Source of the DNA: a virus
Reading direction: 5' to 3' (one strand)
Virus record (IMG/VR): IMGVR_UViG_3300027976_000168
Coordinates: 1-27,627 of that record
DNA: 27,627 nt
Under the pieces are notes generated by a model. It saw only the letters and a program-made list of their open reading frames with translations. It searched no databases and had not been told where the DNA came from. Position 1 is the first letter of the stretch. Every line of letters starts with the position of its first letter. A program made the translations under genes and the position numbers. Shown here in pieces: positions 7,448-25,732 of this stretch.

Positions 7448-7600
7448 ATGATAGCAGATATAATAAAAGCAGTTAGAAGTGATGACTATTATGGTGGTGG
7501 TGAGTTTATAGAACTTGCTAAAGGCAAACATGAATTTACTTTAAAATGGAACGATGTTAAACGCAAAATAAAAAGAGAATGGCTATCAAGAGGGAAGTAA
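7448..7600 (+). CDS. Small protein upstream of tape measure
   Basis: A 50-residue ORF too short for most gene callers, running from ATG at 7448 to TAA at 7600. The peptide contains VRSDDYYGGGEFIELAKG and ends in a basic segment (VKRKIKREWLSRGK). It fills the gap between the 763-residue tail protein and the tape measure and overlaps the latter by 22 bp, as coupled genes do. No function is known. Its position just upstream of the tape measure is where tail chaperone extensions sometimes sit, but its sequence does not resemble one. Confidence 0.6.
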   Translation: MIADIIKAVRSDDYYGGGEFIELAKGKHEFTLKWNDVKRKIKREWLSRGK

Positions 7601-9735
7601 AAATAACAGCAAACACTAGCGAAGCTGTAAAAGAAGTAGACAAACTATCCTCGTCGGTTGATAACACAGCTAACAGCGTTGAAAAATCTAAAGGTAGTTT
7701 ATCAGGATTAACAGGAACGCTTGACAAGTTTACAGGTGGAGCGGTTACAAAGATAAAAGGATTTACTACTGGACTTAAAGGAATGGCTTTAGGTTTTAAT
7801 GGTGTAGGGCTTGCTGTTGCTTCCTCTGGTATTGGTTTAGTTATAATTGCTATTGCTGCGGTTGGTGCTGCTTTTAAAGGTAGTGAAGAAGGTCAAAATA
7901 AGTTTGCTAAACTCATGGCAGTTATAGGAACTGTGATTGGAAACGTAGTTGATGTTCTAGCAGATTTAGGGGATTTTATAATAGACTTGTTTAGCGGCAA
8001 TGGTGAGGCTATGACTAAATTAAAATCGTTCGGAGCTGCTATATTTAACGTCATCGGCTTACCTATAAAGAATATAATTGATGTTGTCAAAGCATTAGGC
8101 AAGGTTTTAGGCGCGTTATTTAGTGGTGATATTAGTGGAGCATTTGATGAATTACAAGCAGGAGTTGCAAATGTAAAAGGTAGTTTTGACGAGGCAACAG
8201 AAAGCATAAAAGGAGCAACAGGAGCGTTAAAAGATTTTGCGAAACAAAATATTGATGAAGCAAAAGCAGCCGCAAAAGTAGCAGACCAAAGAGCAAAGGC
8301 AGATAAAATTGAACGAGATTTAATTGTAGATAAAGCAAAGGCAGAGCGCAAAATTGCAGACCTTAGATTAAAGGCAAAAGACTTAAACAATGTAAGTGCT
8401 AAAGAGCGTGAGGATGCGTTAAAAACTGTTTTATCAATACAAGATGAATTAATAACAAGGGAAACAGAAGTACTTGAACTTAGAAGGGACGCACAAATTG
8501 CAGAGAATGGGTTTGCACGTTCTGATAAAGAGAATTTAGATAAAGAACAGAATGCAATTGCTGCGGTCATTGATGCAGAAACTAGAAGGGTTGACCAACA
8601 GAGAGCAATACAACGAGAATTAACCGCGGCAGAGAATGAGATAAATGCAGAGCGAAAAGCAAGGGCAAAAGAATGGCAGGCTATACAAGATGAAAATGCT
8701 AAAAGTGAACTTGAAAGGCTTAAATCATTATCAGATTTTAAAGAGGCTTTACTAAAAAAAGACGCTGAACTTGATGCAAAAACAGAAGATGAAAAACTAG
8801 CATTAAATAGGTTTAGAGCAGAGACAGAATTAGAAAATTTAGTCGGTACAATAGAAGAAAAAAGAGAAGCAAAAATTGCTTTAAATGCTTATTATGACCA
8901 ACTCGAGGACGAACTAGCAGAGGAAAGAGCTAAGACAGAAGCAGAAAGCAAAGAAAAGAGAGATTTAATACAAGCACAATTTGACGCTTCTAAAATTGAA
9001 GACCCTTTAACTAAGTTAGATGCAGAAAAGGATATTTTAAATAAACAAAATGAAAATTTATTAGAAGATTTAGAAGCAAAAAGAGCAATATATGAACAAG
9101 GCACGAAGGAGCGTTCAGATGCTGAACAAGAATATTTAGACTTTAAACAATCAATTGATAATAAATTAATCGATAACGCTAAAGCAAAAGCACAAGAAGA
9201 AAAAAGAATAGCCGAAACTATTGCAGAACAAAAAAAGGACATAGACACGAATCTACAAAAAACTATTTTAAACATTGCAAAAGAAGGAAGTGCAGTAGCG
9301 AAAGGGTTGGCTATTGCTAATATAGTCAGAGACCAAGCGGCATCTGTAAGTAGTACAATCTCCGCCACAACAGAGGCGAATGCTAAAGCAGTAGCAGCAA
9401 GTCCATTAACACTAGGGCAGCCATTTGTAACGTTAAATACTATACAAGCAGGAATAGGAATAGCGGCAGGAGTTACTGGAGCAATCAAATCAATAAAAGC
9501 AATTAGCAGTGACAAGAAAAGTCCATTAGGAGGCTCATCGTCAGGAGGTGGTGGAGGCGGTGGAGGCGGTGGAGCATCAGCACCATCATTTAACTTAGTT
9601 GCAGGAAGTGGCACAAATCAAATAGCTGAAGGATTATCACAACAACCAACACCTTTAAGAGCCTTTGTGGTTAGTTCAGAGGTCACGACAGCGCAATCAC
9701 TAGACCGTAACATTGAAGCCAACGCATCATTCTAA
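7579..9735 (+). CDS. Tail tape measure protein
   Basis: 718 residues. The tape measure fixes tail length and is ejected with the DNA. Typical features are all present: an N-terminal VKEVDKLSSSVDN segment, a hydrophobic Gly/Ala-rich region (about 65-105, FNGVGLAVASSGIGLVIIAI), a very long charged coiled-coil (about 215-575) rich in Ala, Glu and Lys, a second hydrophobic segment (about 580-650, including LGQPFVTLNTIQAGIGIAAG) and a poly-glycine linker before a short C-terminal domain. At about 1.5 angstrom per residue, a rule from other siphoviruses, the tail would be near 0.1 micrometre. The start at 7579 overlaps the small upstream gene; the coding strand has no good alternative nearby. Confidence 0.9.
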   Translation: MAIKREVKITANTSEAVKEVDKLSSSVDNTANSVEKSKGSLSGLTGTLDKFTGGAVTKIKGFTTGLKGMALGFNGVGLAVASSGIGLVIIAIAAVGAAFKGSEEGQNKFAKLMAVIGTVIGNVVDVLADLGDFIIDLFSGNGEAMTKLKSFGAAIFNVIGLPIKNIIDVVKALGKVLGALFSGDISGAFDELQAGVANVKGSFDEATESIKGATGALKDFAKQNIDEAKAAAKVADQRAKADKIERDLIVDKAKAERKIADLRLKAKDLNNVSAKEREDALKTVLSIQDELITRETEVLELRRDAQIAENGFARSDKENLDKEQNAIAAVIDAETRRVDQQRAIQRELTAAENEINAERKARAKEWQAIQDENAKSELERLKSLSDFKEALLKKDAELDAKTEDEKLALNRFRAETELENLVGTIEEKREAKIALNAYYDQLEDELAEERAKTEAESKEKRDLIQAQFDASKIEDPLTKLDAEKDILNKQNENLLEDLEAKRAIYEQGTKERSDAEQEYLDFKQSIDNKLIDNAKAKAQEEKRIAETIAEQKKDIDTNLQKTILNIAKEGSAVAKGLAIANIVRDQAASVSSTISATTEANAKAVAASPLTLGQPFVTLNTIQAGIGIAAGVTGAIKSIKAISSDKKSPLGGSSSGGGGGGGGGGASAPSFNLVAGSGTNQIAEGLSQQPTPLRAFVVSSEVTTAQSLDRNIEANASF
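9550..9575 (+). repeat. Three imperfect 9-bp repeats coding poly-glycine in the tape measure
   Basis: GGTGGAGGC is repeated at 9550-9558 and 9559-9567 and continues as a partial third copy from 9568. It codes a run of about ten glycines. It is the most GC-rich short tract of the window and a likely place for slippage, which would change linker length without altering the frame. Confidence 0.8.
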
Positions 9736-12901: not shown

Positions 12902-14543
12902 TCAAATTAAGTTAATACAGTTAAACGGTTATGTTAGACCGAAGGTACAAGAATCTACAAGTCAAGAATGGGTTTTAAACGGAAAAAAGAACTGGTTTTA
13001 TGAGTATATCATAGACAGAAAGACTGGAAGCGTTACTAATTCGGCAATTATAAACTCTTATGTAGATCTAATATACGGAAAAGGGATTGGCGCAAAAAAT
13101 TCAGGAACTAGAATAGAGGACTGGTTAAAATTAAAACAAATATTAAAACCAGAGCAACTTCATAGGATTGTTTCAGATTTTGCTTTATTTGGCGAAGCTA
13201 GTTTTGAAATTATACAAACGAAAGGGAGAAGTATATCAAGCATTAACCATATACCAAAACAAAAAGTAGTCCCTAATAAGGTTAACGATGACAATGAAAT
13301 TGATATTTATTGGTATTGTGACGATTGGAAGAACACAAACGCCAACAAACCAGAGGAGTATCAAGCATTTAAAGGGAGTGATGGCAAGGCATCGCAAATG
13401 TATGTTATAAAGCCTTACCAAGCTGGTAATAGGAATTACTTTAGTGACCCTAGTTGGATTGCTTGCGCTCCTTATTGCGAAATGGAGGAGGAGATAGCTA
13501 ATATGAATATTAGTTCTATTAAGAGCGGATTAAGTGCTGGTTATATTATAAACATTCCTGACGGCAAGAGTTTAAGCAATGAAGAAAAAGACGACTTTGA
13601 AAAGAAGATAAGAGCGAGATTAACAGGATCACCAAACGCAAGTCAATTTATATTAAGTTTTAACGGTAGAGATATTGAGGTTACTATAACACCTTTTCCA
13701 GTAAATGACAACATTCATAAGCAATGGCAATGGTTAACAGATTCCGCAAGACAGCAAATAATCACAGGTCATCGATTAACTTCACCAGTATTGGCTGGTA
13801 TAAGCACGCCGAGTGGTTTTAGTAGTACATCCGACGAGATGGAAATGGCAGAAGAGCAATTGATGAAGCGTGTGATTTCACCAATGCAAAATCATATACT
13901 GACAGCTTTAGAAGAAGTTTTAGAAGCCTATGGTATAAACTTAGATTTATATTTTATTCCTTTAGGAGGTGAAGTTGTTGCGCCAACTAAAACAGAACTT
14001 TCAAAAGAAGATGAATTTGCTTTTTTAGAAATGTACGCACAAGACAGTCCTGAAGGTTACGAATTAACAGATGGTTCTGAATACGAACTACAATTATCAG
14101 CAAACCAAACAAGCGAACAAGATTCTGCAAGGTGGAAAATTAGATATGCTTATGCGGTAGGTACAAGTAAGACACCAAAAGGAAAATCAAGGGGTTTTTG
14201 TAATAAAATGATTTCACTTTCCAGTAGTGGTAAGGTCTTTAGAAAAGAAGATATTGAATTAATGAGTATGCAAGGAGTTAACGGACAATTTGCACATGAA
14301 GGCGGCAAATACGACATATTTTTATATGGTGGTGGAGTTAATTGTTATCATAGATGGGAGCGTAGAATATTCAAAAAAGAACTAGGTGCAGATGGCAAGC
14401 CTAAAAAGGGAGGTGCTTTAGCATCAACTAATGAGGTTAATGTAAATGAAGCAAGACGACAAGGCGCAAAAATACCAAAAAACAGTCCTGATGTAGCTAT
14501 TGCAGAGATAGATAAACCAAATAAGGGAGCATACTCAAATTAA
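12894..14543 (+). CDS. Portal protein with a MuF-like C-terminal extension
   Basis: 549 residues. The first 380 or so look like a portal: NSAIINSYVDLIYGKGIG (about 50-67), FALFGEASFEII, SGLSAGYIINIP and a stem-like region with TDSARQQIITGHRLTSPVLA, then an acidic EMEMAEEQLMKRVI helix. The portal ring is the DNA entry and exit pore and binds TerL. The C-terminal 140 residues contain TPKGKSRGFCNKMIS, VFRKEDIELMSMQGVN and YGGGVNCYHRWERRIF, a pattern that recalls the C-terminal conserved motif of MuF-type head morphogenesis proteins. So it may be a portal-MuF fusion. It follows the capsid gene, the reverse of the usual order. Confidence 0.7.
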   Translation: MDSQIKLIQLNGYVRPKVQESTSQEWVLNGKKNWFYEYIIDRKTGSVTNSAIINSYVDLIYGKGIGAKNSGTRIEDWLKLKQILKPEQLHRIVSDFALFGEASFEIIQTKGRSISSINHIPKQKVVPNKVNDDNEIDIYWYCDDWKNTNANKPEEYQAFKGSDGKASQMYVIKPYQAGNRNYFSDPSWIACAPYCEMEEEIANMNISSIKSGLSAGYIINIPDGKSLSNEEKDDFEKKIRARLTGSPNASQFILSFNGRDIEVTITPFPVNDNIHKQWQWLTDSARQQIITGHRLTSPVLAGISTPSGFSSTSDEMEMAEEQLMKRVISPMQNHILTALEEVLEAYGINLDLYFIPLGGEVVAPTKTELSKEDEFAFLEMYAQDSPEGYELTDGSEYELQLSANQTSEQDSARWKIRYAYAVGTSKTPKGKSRGFCNKMISLSSSGKVFRKEDIELMSMQGVNGQFAHEGGKYDIFLYGGGVNCYHRWERRIFKKELGADGKPKKGGALASTNEVNVNEARRQGAKIPKNSPDVAIAEIDKPNKGAYSN

Positions 14544-23081: not shown

Positions 23082-23357
23082 ATGAAAGAAACATTTAAAG
23101 ATATTACAGATTTTGAAGGTAGTTATCAGATTGATAAACAAGGTAACATTAAGAGCATTAAATTTCCAGAACATCGTATTTTAAAAGAGCGAATTAATGG
23201 ATCTGGTTATTCAATAGCAAACTTATCAAAAGACAAAAAGAATAAAAATTACTACGTTCATTTATTAATGGCTAGAACTTTTTTAGACTGCTATAAAGTA
23301 ACATGGAAAAACAATATTAAAACCGATAATCGATTAATTAATTTAATAAAACTATGA
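23082..23357 (+). CDS. NUMOD4/HNH homing nuclease remnant
   Basis: 91 residues. The N-terminus is a NUMOD4 DNA-binding motif (FKDITDFEGSYQIDKQGNIK, about 4-23), followed by RILKERINGSGYSIANLSK and VHLLMARTFL, as in HNH homing nucleases. Where the HNH usually has a conserved 'vnHidg..NN..NLew' the sequence is VTWKNNIKTDNRLINLIKL: the catalytic His is replaced by Trp and the end is missing. It is probably a decayed or repurposed homing nuclease. It has its own promoter, and its stop overlaps the next gene by 4 bp (ATGA). Confidence 0.7.
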   Translation: MKETFKDITDFEGSYQIDKQGNIKSIKFPEHRILKERINGSGYSIANLSKDKKNKNYYVHLLMARTFLDCYKVTWKNNIKTDNRLINLIKL

Positions 23358-23839
23358 AACTAGAAGATTTAAAAAAAGACATACCCTTTAAATGGAGGGT
23401 ACAAAGCGCAAATCAATATGGTGCTTCTTGCGTTGCTTACATTGATGCTCGACAAGTTCAAGACTTGTTAGATGAAGTTTGTGGTCAGGAATTTTGGCAA
23501 AGCAGATATTCAGAACATAAAGGAAATTTATTTTGTGAAATCGGAATAAAAACATCAGTGATATTAAATGTAGATGATAAAAAAGTAAATTATAGTAATT
23601 GGGTGTGGAAGTCAGATTGTGGATCTGAATCTAATATTGAGAAACAAAAAGGTGAAGCGTCAGACGCTTTTAAACGAGCTGCGGTTATGTGGGGGGTTGG
23701 CAGATTCTTATATTCTAAAAAGATTGTTAAACTACCTGTAAAAGAAAAAGGCGGAAAATGGCTACCATATTCAGAAAAAACATCAAAGTTTATATATGGA
23801 GACGATATATCTAAATGGTGCAACCTGTTAAATAAATAA
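23354..23839 (+). CDS. Rad52/22-type single-strand annealing protein
   Basis: 161 residues. Shows the Rad52-like core: IPFKWRVQSANQYGASCVAY (10-29), IDARQVQDLLDEVCGQEFW, then NWVWKSDCGSESNIE and KGEASDAFKRAAVMWGVGRF (about 99-118), the region conserved in phage Rad52/22 (Sak-type) recombinases. Such proteins bind single strands and anneal complementary DNA, and usually work with an exonuclease. The C-terminal GDDISKWC end is short. Neighbours (RusA-like, NinB-like, HNH) fit a phage recombination module. Confidence 0.85.
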   Translation: MKLEDLKKDIPFKWRVQSANQYGASCVAYIDARQVQDLLDEVCGQEFWQSRYSEHKGNLFCEIGIKTSVILNVDDKKVNYSNWVWKSDCGSESNIEKQKGEASDAFKRAAVMWGVGRFLYSKKIVKLPVKEKGGKWLPYSEKTSKFIYGDDISKWCNLLNK

Positions 23840-23841
23840 CC

Positions 23842-24249
23842 ATGAAAAGAATAAACGCAACATTTGAAGTTGAAAACGATTTACAAGAACATAATTTAAG
23901 AAACATCTTAGAGGGAATTAATGCTAAATACGTTAATACTTTGCCAAACACAGACCACTTAAAAGATAATGAAACTTTTATAAAGCTGGTTAAAGGAAAA
24001 AGGAACGCTCAACTATTACTGGATAGATTTACAAATGAAAATCGATGTTCTAATATATCAATTAAAGATGTAGAAAATTTAGAAGTTGACGGAGTTGACA
24101 TAAAAGATTATCCAGATTTTTGTGATGCTTTTTTTGCTGATGGTTGGTTAATATCTGAAAATAGAAATTTAACAGATGACGAGCTTATGAAATTAGGAGA
24201 CGACTATCCAGAGGTGTTAAGCGAAATGGCTTATGAACGTTATTTATGA
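23842..24249 (+). CDS. Acidic conserved phage protein, unknown function
   Basis: 135 residues. The C-terminal half has a phage-typical acidic pattern (DGVDIKDYPDFCDAFFADGW, then LTDDELMKLGDDYPEVLSE), resembling short conserved proteins of Bacteroidota phages. The N-terminal half (INATFEVENDLQEHNL...) is less clear. No enzyme motif is visible. It sits three bases after the Rad52-like gene and overlaps the NinB-like gene by 4 bp, so a role in recombination or replication is a guess from position. Confidence 0.5.
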   Translation: MKRINATFEVENDLQEHNLRNILEGINAKYVNTLPNTDHLKDNETFIKLVKGKRNAQLLLDRFTNENRCSNISIKDVENLEVDGVDIKDYPDFCDAFFADGWLISENRNLTDDELMKLGDDYPEVLSEMAYERYL

Positions 24250-24671
24250 TATTCAATCTTCAAAATAACGATGAAACAATAAAGGCAAATGAACGCTTTA
24301 AATGGCTAAAAGATAAAGGAAAGACTATTGAGTTATTAGAGAAAAAACAAACCCGTAGTGATAGCCAAAATAGGGCGTTGCATCTATTCTTTACAATCAT
24401 ATCAAGTCAATTAAACGAAATGGGTTTAGAGTTTAAATACTTAGGCTTAAAAGGGCAAATTTTAGAAACTAGATATACACCTGATTTAATAAAAAATTAT
24501 GTTTGGCGTCCTATTCAAGAAATAATGTTTGATATTAAAAGTACTAGAAAAATTAATACCAAACAGATTAATGATATTATAGATGTACTTGCTAAATTCT
24601 TTGCAGAGCGTGGAGTATTAATTGAGTTCCCAAGCATAGAAACATTAATGAATAAAAACACCAATAATTAA
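24246..24671 (+). CDS. NinB-like recombination protein
   Basis: 141 residues. The pattern KKQTRSDSQNRALHLFFTII (about 33-52), NYVWRPIQEIMFDIKSTRKI (about 83-102) and FAERGVLIEFPSIET (about 119-133) resembles the NinB/Orf family of phage proteins, which act as recombination mediators and bind single-stranded DNA. It is the last gene before a small RNA or attenuator element. Assigned on motif order and position next to Rad52-like and RusA-like genes. Confidence 0.6.
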   Translation: MIFNLQNNDETIKANERFKWLKDKGKTIELLEKKQTRSDSQNRALHLFFTIISSQLNEMGLEFKYLGLKGQILETRYTPDLIKNYVWRPIQEIMFDIKSTRKINTKQINDIIDVLAKFFAERGVLIEFPSIETLMNKNTNN

Positions 24672-24682
24672 ATAATATTTAG

Positions 24683-24690
24683 TATATTTG
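24683..24690 (+). promoter_or_regulatory. Putative -10 box (TATATTTG) before the terminator element
   Basis: TATATTTG fits TAnnTTTG. No TTTG -33 box is found 18-20 bp upstream. A start near 24695-24697 would place the transcript's 5' end at the pairing arm 24699-24710. Confidence 0.4.
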
Positions 24691-24698
24691 AACTTTAA

Positions 24699-24785
24699 AA
24701 ACTCACCACAATGAAAAAATTTATTAATAGCAAAAGAGTAAAAGCGAGTTCCTGTGGTGGGTTTCTTGCTTTTGCTCTTTTTTTT
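24699..24785 (+). ncRNA. Terminator with loop complementary to transcript 5' end (sRNA or attenuator)
   Basis: A strong intrinsic terminator: 24732-24748 pairs 24765-24781 over 17 bp with two G.U pairs, then eight T (24778-24785). Its 16-nt loop (24749-24764) ends in TGTGGTGGGTTT (24753-24764), complementary to AAACTCACCACA at 24699-24710 with one G.U pair. The two pairings interleave, forming either an H-type pseudoknot or alternating structures. A TATATTTG box upstream would give a transcript of about 90 nt. It could be a stand-alone small RNA or an attenuator of the gene at 24796. Confidence 0.6.
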
Positions 24786-24791
24786 ATATAA
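24711..24791 (+). CDS. Possible 26-residue leader peptide across the terminator
   Basis: ATG at 24711 directly follows the first pairing arm, and TAA is at 24789-24791, past the T run. The peptide has a basic start (MKKFINSKRVKASS), then Cys-Gly-Gly and a hydrophobic end (FLAFALFFI). A ribosome on it would occupy the terminator hairpin, so its translation could change termination. It may equally be an accidental ORF forced open by the hairpin sequence. Confidence 0.3.
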   Translation: MKKFINSKRVKASSCGGFLAFALFFI

Positions 24792-24795
24792 TATT

Positions 24796-25080
24796 ATGAA
24801 AGAGTTAAAAGAATATTTTTCAGGACGAGGTCAAGTAAAGGACTACGTATTTAACCAAATAAGCAAGACTAAACACGCTTTTTTGTACGAAGTCAAAAAT
24901 AATGACGCTATACACTACGAAATTTTTAAACGCAAAGAAAACGCAATGTATGAATGTATTTCATATCCAACAGACAAAGCGTTCGGAGTTTGGGCATGGA
25001 CTACATTATCATTACAGCGAGCAAAAGAAATATTAAAAGATATAGAATTTAATGAAAACTTGAAAGATGGCGGAGAATAA
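24796..25080 (+). CDS. Small conserved phage protein after the attenuator-like element
   Basis: 94 residues from ATG at 24796; an upstream in-frame start at 24754 lies inside the terminator loop and gives a Leu/Phe-rich lead made by the T run, so it is rejected. Pattern: YFSGRGQVKDYVFNQISKT, then FLYEVKNNDAIHYEIFKRK and YPTDKAFGVWAWTTL. Such short proteins occur in Bacteroidota phages near replication genes, without known role. It overlaps the next gene by 14 bp. Confidence 0.6.
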   Translation: MKELKEYFSGRGQVKDYVFNQISKTKHAFLYEVKNNDAIHYEIFKRKENAMYECISYPTDKAFGVWAWTTLSLQRAKEILKDIEFNENLKDGGE

Positions 25081-25732
25081 AAAATCTTTTGTTTTATATG
25101 TTGATTTAATTCATACCGTTTTAAAGATGCCAAATAGTAAGGCTGGTGAATTGTTTAAACATATTTTAAAATATGTAAATGATGAAAATCCAGAAACGAA
25201 GGATTTAATTATCCAATTAACTTTTGAGCCTATTAAACAACAGTTAAAAAGAGACTTAAAAAAGTATGAAGATAAGAAAAAGCAATGGAGCGAAGCTGGT
25301 AAACGTTCAGCAGAAGTAAGAAAGGTTAACAAAAAAGAACGAACGTTAACGACCGTTGAAAGTCGTTCAACGGATTTAACTGTTAGTGTTAATGATAGTG
25401 TTAATGTTAATGTAAATGTAATACCTAAAGGTATTTATACAGAAAAAGATTTTTTAAAAGATTGGAATGATTTAAGAACAGAACATTTAAAGAAGCCGTC
25501 TTTTTTGAATAGATTAACAAATGAAGATTTAACCAACTTAAAAGACTTATTAAACAACTATAAAAAAGAAGATTTTAACAATTCGCTCATAGGCTTGTTT
25601 AAACAAAAGAAATTACCAAACGGAAACACAACAATGCAAAGTAATCCCTCGCATTTTTTAAAATTCTTTAACAGCTACTTAACGGCTTACCACGACAAAA
25701 ATGTAATGCTTTACGGAAAAGAAATAGAATAA
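25067..25732 (+). CDS. Replisome organiser-like protein (DUF6291-like N-terminus)
   Basis: 221 residues. The N-terminal part has SFVLYVDLIHTVLKMPNSKA (about 7-26) and GELFKHILKYVND, then EPIKQQLKRDLKKYEDKKKQ and SEAGKRSAEV, which resembles DUF6291-like and replisome-organiser N-terminal domains. A Val/Asn-rich linker (about 106-118) made of near-hexamer DNA repeats follows. The C-terminal half (KDFLKDWNDLRTEHLKKPSF, LTNEDLTNLKDLLNN) is helical and may bind DNA or the helicase. It directly precedes the ATPase gene (1-bp overlap), as initiator-helicase pairs often do. Confidence 0.6.
   Translation: MAENKKSFVLYVDLIHTVLKMPNSKAGELFKHILKYVNDENPETKDLIIQLTFEPIKQQLKRDLKKYEDKKKQWSEAGKRSAEVRKVNKKERTLTTVESRSTDLTVSVNDSVNVNVNVIPKGIYTEKDFLKDWNDLRTEHLKKPSFLNRLTNEDLTNLKDLLNNYKKEDFNNSLIGLFKQKKLPNGNTTMQSNPSHFLKFFNSYLTAYHDKNVMLYGKEIE
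25379..25419 (+). repeat. Val/Asn-coding short repeats in the replication gene
   Basis: GTTAAT and close variants (GTTAGT, GATAGT, GTAAAT) repeat in tandem, coding a Val/Asn/Ser-rich linker. Such a tract is prone to slippage. It is followed by an inverted repeat AATACC/GGTATT (25420-25435), which resembles the palindrome at 26700-26715. Confidence 0.6.

Follow-up and report, generated by a model that had tools for sequence, protein, structure and literature searches.

As a kind, leader RNAs that lie close to a promoter and control termination are already known. In the antisense-RNA attenuators of plasmids pT181 and pIP501, and in the RNAI/RNAII pair of ColE1, a leader or primer RNA is the point at which loop–loop pairing controls replication; the partners there are two RNAs read from opposite strands, whereas in the element described here both loops belong to one RNA, one in a 5' hairpin (H1) and the other in a terminator hairpin (H2). 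The P4 CI and P1 c4 RNAs (Rfam RF01695) act as antisense to distant targets and underlie prophage immunity. The present element resembles them as a phage leader RNA of an early operon with candidate control by base pairing; unlike them, it matches nothing in Rfam and hardly occurs in bacterial chromosomes. Riboswitches with internal loop–loop contacts, such as the purine riboswitch, likewise combine a kiss in the leader with a separate terminator behind it; there the kissing loops sit within an aptamer that its own helix closes off, whereas in the phage element the loop of the terminator itself is one of the kissing partners. An intrinsic terminator that kisses the 5' hairpin of its transcript through its own loop is not, to our knowledge, among the RNAs described so far, and a search of open-access papers turned up no account of this layout. 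The putL and putR RNAs of HK022, finally, are about 70 nt long and form two stem-loops in the early transcript, putL just past the promoter (PMC9378689). Like the element, they are two-hairpin early RNAs, and the passages on put in that source have them act on transcription termination; these passages describe no kiss of the kind seen here, where H2 is an intrinsic terminator whose loop pairs with H1, and the hosts differ.

The element was noticed in a 27,627-nucleotide stretch of viral DNA (IMG/VR record IMGVR_UViG_3300027976_000168), called ‘the window’ below; its features all lie on the plus strand. It begins with an exact match to the sigma-A −7 consensus, TAnnTTTG (TATATTTG, 24683..24690), a box that sits at −12 to −5 in published TSS data (PMC9723704). 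From the position of this box, the 5' end would lie near 24695, and the predicted terminated RNA, reckoned from five nucleotides past the box to the end of the T run, would be about 93 nt long (24695..24787). Nine nucleotides 3' of the box begins the 5' arm, arm A (AAACTCACCACA, 24699..24710), which is complementary to the H2 loop and is the counterpart of the H1 loop of relatives; its core, CACCACA, is the kissing partner. An A/U-rich linker (24711..24731) leads to H2 (24732..24781), which has a 17-bp outer stem (24732-24748 with 24765-24781, including two G.U). The loop arm A' (TGTGGTGGGTTT, 24753..24764) pairs with arm A, and the H2 loop is further folded as UCC-UGUGGU-GGG, that is, an inner UCC/GGG stem and a UGUGGU loop. 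With a folding MFE of −25.6 (z −3.3) and a T run behind it (24780..24787, the first two T being part of the stem), H2 is a stable hairpin followed by a U run, and so classes as an intrinsic terminator. A 26-codon ORF (MKKFINSKRVKASSCGGFLAFALFFI) runs from the ATG at 24711 to a stop at 24791. Box, stem, loop complementarity, T run and ORF are all found in the window sequence at the positions that the earlier note had given them.

Directly 5' of the element lie recombination genes (Rad52/Erf-like and NinB-like, 23354-24671); a transcript from upstream would also run into the terminator. The first gene past it encodes a 94-aa protein (24796..25080, SYP..KAFGVWAWT), and the second (25067..25732) a DUF6291 protein (Pfam PF19808, E 2e-21) that is likely to function in replication initiation; it has a weak PHROG match to a primosomal protein (phrog_6451, E 5e-7), and its homologue in Olleya phage Harreka_1 is annotated ‘replication protein’. 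Searches of Pfam and PHROG placed the 94-aa protein in no family. It has distant relatives in Bacteroides phage C3_41T2LP and in Tenacibaculum phages PTm1 and PTm5; its AlphaFold model (pLDDT 81) is a small beta sheet with a C-terminal helix, for which a fold search of the PDB returned nothing convincing (best E 0.29).

In the window, the helix of arm A with A' comprises 12 bp, one of them U.G, with seven contiguous Watson–Crick pairs. A helix of 12 bp arose in 18 of 5000 dinucleotide shuffles, and random 41-nt stretches taken from the window gave one in 32 of 5000 cases. Taken by itself, the window is suggestive and not decisive: the pairing is only moderately unlikely by chance, and the weight comes from relatives. 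These were gathered in a first comparison set of 13 loci besides the window (L001, L003, L004, L006, L007, L010, L011, L013, L015, L017, L028, L036 and L039), picked solely via relatives of the 94-aa protein. All 13 have, in the same order, a TAnnTTTG-like box, a 5' arm, a terminator with a complementary apical loop, T's—at least four after H2 in every case—and an ATG. Despite this common layout, primary sequences largely differ among the 13 loci and the window. BLAST of one element against isolate phages and plasmids gave chance matches only, as expected of an element whose primary sequence is not conserved. The loops match their own 5' regions over a mean of 7.2 nt and those of other loci over 3.9 nt, a result reached in none of 20 000 permutations. 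The earlier note had made its reading depend on whether related phages keep arm A matched to the loop; they do keep the pairing, through near-complete turnover of the sequence. In other relatives, for example L014, L016, L018 and L019, the gene for the 94-aa protein stands directly behind another gene, without RNA between. A search for relatives of the NinB-type upstream protein found none.

The relatives usually present the arm as the loop of H1 (e.g. GUUGC-CUCUCGACAUUAUA-GCAAC). Their H2 is built of an outer stem and a short inner one, separated by an internal loop and capped by a loop of 6–10 nt; in most relatives the internal loop carries an xGAx/xGAx or AGUA/GAA motif (UGAA/GGAU, GGAA/GGAA, GGAU/UGAA or AGUA/GAA). 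The H1 and H2 loops pair over 6–10 bp. The helices of H1, outer H2 and inner H2 covary (0 of 500 shuffles), and so does the kissing helix, which has changes on both sides at 8 of its 8 pairs and is 85% paired, versus 32–45% when slid. There are 42 distinct loop pairs and 34 kissing sequences; each loop forms at least 6 bp with its own partner, and cross pairing averages 3.1. Sequence in the kiss varies no more than in the inner stem (identity 0.56 versus 0.33), which gives no support to the notion of kissing loops as hypervariable specificity determinants. The structure is well supported, and we read the contact as a kissing loop between H1 and H2 in which both stems would exist together in the cell. 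Where linkers are shortest (11 nt), they look too short to span H1, kiss and H2 if these stack coaxially in a straight line, and the proposed fold would have to bend. The earlier note had suggested an H-type pseudoknot, and here it gives way to the relatives, in which two hairpins kiss loop to loop and keep their stems. At full length, 12 plus 17 bp, such a pseudoknot is sterically excluded because no nucleotides are available between A' and the second arm of the stem to cross a 12-bp helix; a contact of 6–9 bp, unlike one of 12, can coexist with the H2 stem. Loops are of two types, a purine-rich kiss and a pyrimidine-rich kiss with an A/U tail, and at five elements (L212, L441, L445, L209 and L165 at 7585-7695) these are swapped between H1 and H2 relative to the majority; complementarity thus outweighs which hairpin bears which strand.

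The window copy departs from this plan. Its region 24691-24731 forms no stable H1 (MFE −0.2), and its H2 internal loop is U/UUU, neither xGAx/xGAx nor AGUA/GAA. Since box, linker, terminator and complementarity are present, and stable H1 and motif absent, we treat it as an atypical, position-homologous member of the class; its contact core, CACCACA/TGTGGTG, lies within the class range of at least 6 bp. Given what is missing, the copy may be degenerate. A comparable layout, in which the kiss spans 9 bp and H1 is no more than a weak candidate, occurs in Cellulophaga phages phi13:2 and phi19:3, so the window may instead represent a real sub-type rather than decay; the DUF6291 protein of phi13:2 is ~60% identical to that of the window over 86 aa. 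No further element with the window's own loop sequence occurs among the matches listed.

Searches that did not start from the 94-aa protein lead to the same element. A covariance-model search, suggested in the earlier note as a check, was run with H2 alone and reached two new places (L180 and L165 at 5111), each with a matching H1 and the contact. A pattern restricted to the H2 stem and internal loop, with the loop sequence and all that lies upstream unconstrained, added 37 loci, which amount to about 25 distinct elements. All 37 have the TAnnTTTG box, as against 3.2% of background windows, and all 37 have an H1 whose loop pairs with the H2 loop (two use one G.U). Controls—reversed sequences and unrelated pattern matches—seldom scored high with the descriptor, and by eye none showed the complete set of features. 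A scan with a pattern for AGUA/GAA only picked up nothing genuine, and was used as the descriptor's negative control.

Seven isolate phages were selected solely for related replication proteins: tooticki6-1, lillamy9-1, stinky9-1, phi19:1, Nekkels_1, elemoC 13-1C and phi13:2. In all seven, the element lies between the preceding gene and the replication genes; tooticki6-1, lillamy9-1 and stinky9-1 have one identical element in common. It also precedes the replication genes in Harreka_1, 11b, phi10:1 and morran9-1, and was not detected in Leeuwenhoekiella phage Arctus_1. Single-locus shuffle odds among the isolates run from 2/3000 to 222/3000, so the weight lies in the set and not in single loci. 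Between lillamy9-1 and morran9-1, which belong to the same genus, the kiss has undergone compensatory change (GTGAGACG/CGTCTCAC versus GTGAGAAG/CTTCTCAC). In Cellulophaga phage Nekkels_1 (L444, 236-380), H2 seems to contain an extra hairpin insertion, and the kiss, ATTGGAA/TTCCAAT, is the weakest among the isolates by shuffling (222/3000).

The catalogue now holds 46 distinct elements found by descriptor, after removal of one false match, and about a dozen found by eye; in all, more than 50 distinct elements keep the pairing through sequence turnover. Where scored, H1 starts at about +1 to +2, and the median distance from box to H1 is 5 nt. The ATG of the next gene lies 8–46 nt past H2 (median 20), and in none of 45 elements does a TAnnTTTG box occur between the two. 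Genes behind the element encode DUF6291 proteins, other putative replication initiators, or primase/helicase operons; behind some catalogued elements, the gene that follows is no replication initiator but a small unknown gene or another one. Four loci of closely related phages (L150, L102, L157 and L061) have in common an upstream 90-aa gene and a similar RNA, with differing replication initiators behind, and judging by this arrangement the RNA marks a module boundary at which initiators are exchanged. The element occurs in phages of the genera Harrekavirus, Cebadecemvirus, Cellubavirus, Nekkelsvirus, Baltivirus, Lillamyvirus, Muminvirus and Elemovirus. In whole-genome searches it was present in 1 of 395 Bacteroidota and 2 of 397 Flavobacteriaceae genomes, and the few bacterial contigs that have it may be phage. 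No known Rfam family fits: among 4227 models none matched the window, and seven relatives gave just a spurious match to mir-454; the compact, self-contained RNA unit without a described family that the earlier note perceived stands. That note's 26-codon ORF, by contrast, has no counterpart: none of 15 relatives examined has a conserved leader ORF, and on this ground we reject a leader-peptide attenuator.

From the layout we infer how the element might work. On balance, it is probably a leader RNA that acts in cis, close behind its promoter, to gate read-through into the replication operon. The promoter would start the RNA, and its first nucleotides would form H1 (in the window, a single-stranded arm only), followed after a linker of mostly 11–20 nt by the H2 terminator. 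The loops of H1 and H2 would then kiss, both stems being kept, to give a compact two-hairpin fold that ends at the U run. Because the loops are sized to pair and the stems persist, the contact would be part of the folded leader and not a rival of the terminator stem. Transcripts from the element's own promoter or from upstream genes would have to cross H2, since the next ATG follows so closely with no promoter box between. If termination wins, a folded RNA of ~90 nt would be released and the replication genes would stay off; if RNA polymerase reads through, they would be expressed. The kiss, together with the motif in upper H2 (xGAx/xGAx or AGUA/GAA), might set or sense the balance between the two outcomes. 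Regulated read-through is the simplest role because only the terminator separates the promoter from the replication genes.

Of the two functions contemplated in the earlier note, a phage sRNA and an attenuator, we favour the attenuator. A stand-alone sRNA of ~90 nt, its ends protected by H1, H2 and the contact and acting in trans through its A/U-rich linker, with the replication genes served by other transcripts, strikes us as rather unlikely. Promoter, two hairpins and terminator do make a complete transcription unit, the box is present in every H2-only locus and there is usually one element per phage; the anatomy would equally fit an independent sRNA gene merely sited before an operon. Against this, the ATG follows within 8–46 nt, leaving no room for a promoter box, and the unit stays before the operon even where replication modules are exchanged.

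That the element serves immunity or copy control in trans, a terminated RNA kissing the nascent leader of another copy and so altering termination, as plasmid attenuation and the antisense immunity of P4 and P1 would suggest by analogy, we hold to be improbable. The loops form many near-orthogonal pairs, and where a contig contains two elements their loops differ: L004 (429-539 and 2906-2998), L165 (5071-5168 and 7585-7695) and L270 (338 and 3456). Most phage records have one element. Yet the loops are already satisfied inside one RNA, the kiss is no more variable than the inner stem, the element is nearly absent from bacterial genomes, and virulent phages are among those of the hosts (PMC7077304). 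Prophage immunity in particular is rejected on that near absence and on a kiss that is not especially fast-evolving.

We give just as little credence to a put-like function, in which the two-hairpin RNA would bind RNA polymerase while emerging from it and render the enzyme termination-resistant, both at this terminator and at later ones. For put RNA itself, suppression of downstream termination goes through the RNAP beta' zinc-binding domain. The two stem-loops, their total size and their place near an early promoter are similar in HK022 putL, and GA or AGUA/GAA internal loops might suit contacts with protein; H2 has its own U run, however, which is not part of the description of put in the passages on it (PMC9378689). 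An ordinary terminator, its loop complementarity due to chance or to RNA stability without regulation, is the least probable reading: the window match alone is only moderately unlikely and the window has no H1, yet the pairing is conserved in more than 50 distinct elements, and the permutation and covariation tests disfavour chance.

Returning to the cis-acting gate, the element is, judging by its layout, very likely a control RNA of a new kind, belonging to phages of Flavobacteria and their relatives. More tentatively, it could represent an undescribed, widespread class of Bacteroidota-phage RNAs in which a kiss from the 5' hairpin turns a terminator into a gate, timing replication without a dedicated protein. 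Regulation in Bacteroidota phages is little described, and a structured RNA that several phage genera keep before differing replication modules points to a control point. If true, a terminator in tertiary contact with the 5' end of its own RNA would broaden the view of what intrinsic terminators do, and the swappable loop pairs make the idea directly testable in cultured phage–host systems. Two minor observations concern individual records. The contig of L001 has a second, weak covariance-model match of 32 bits (L316, minus strand, 23598-23679). And in morran9-1 (L212), the annotated ‘hypothetical protein’ gp042 (14157-14300) overlaps the RNA element and is unlikely to be a true gene.
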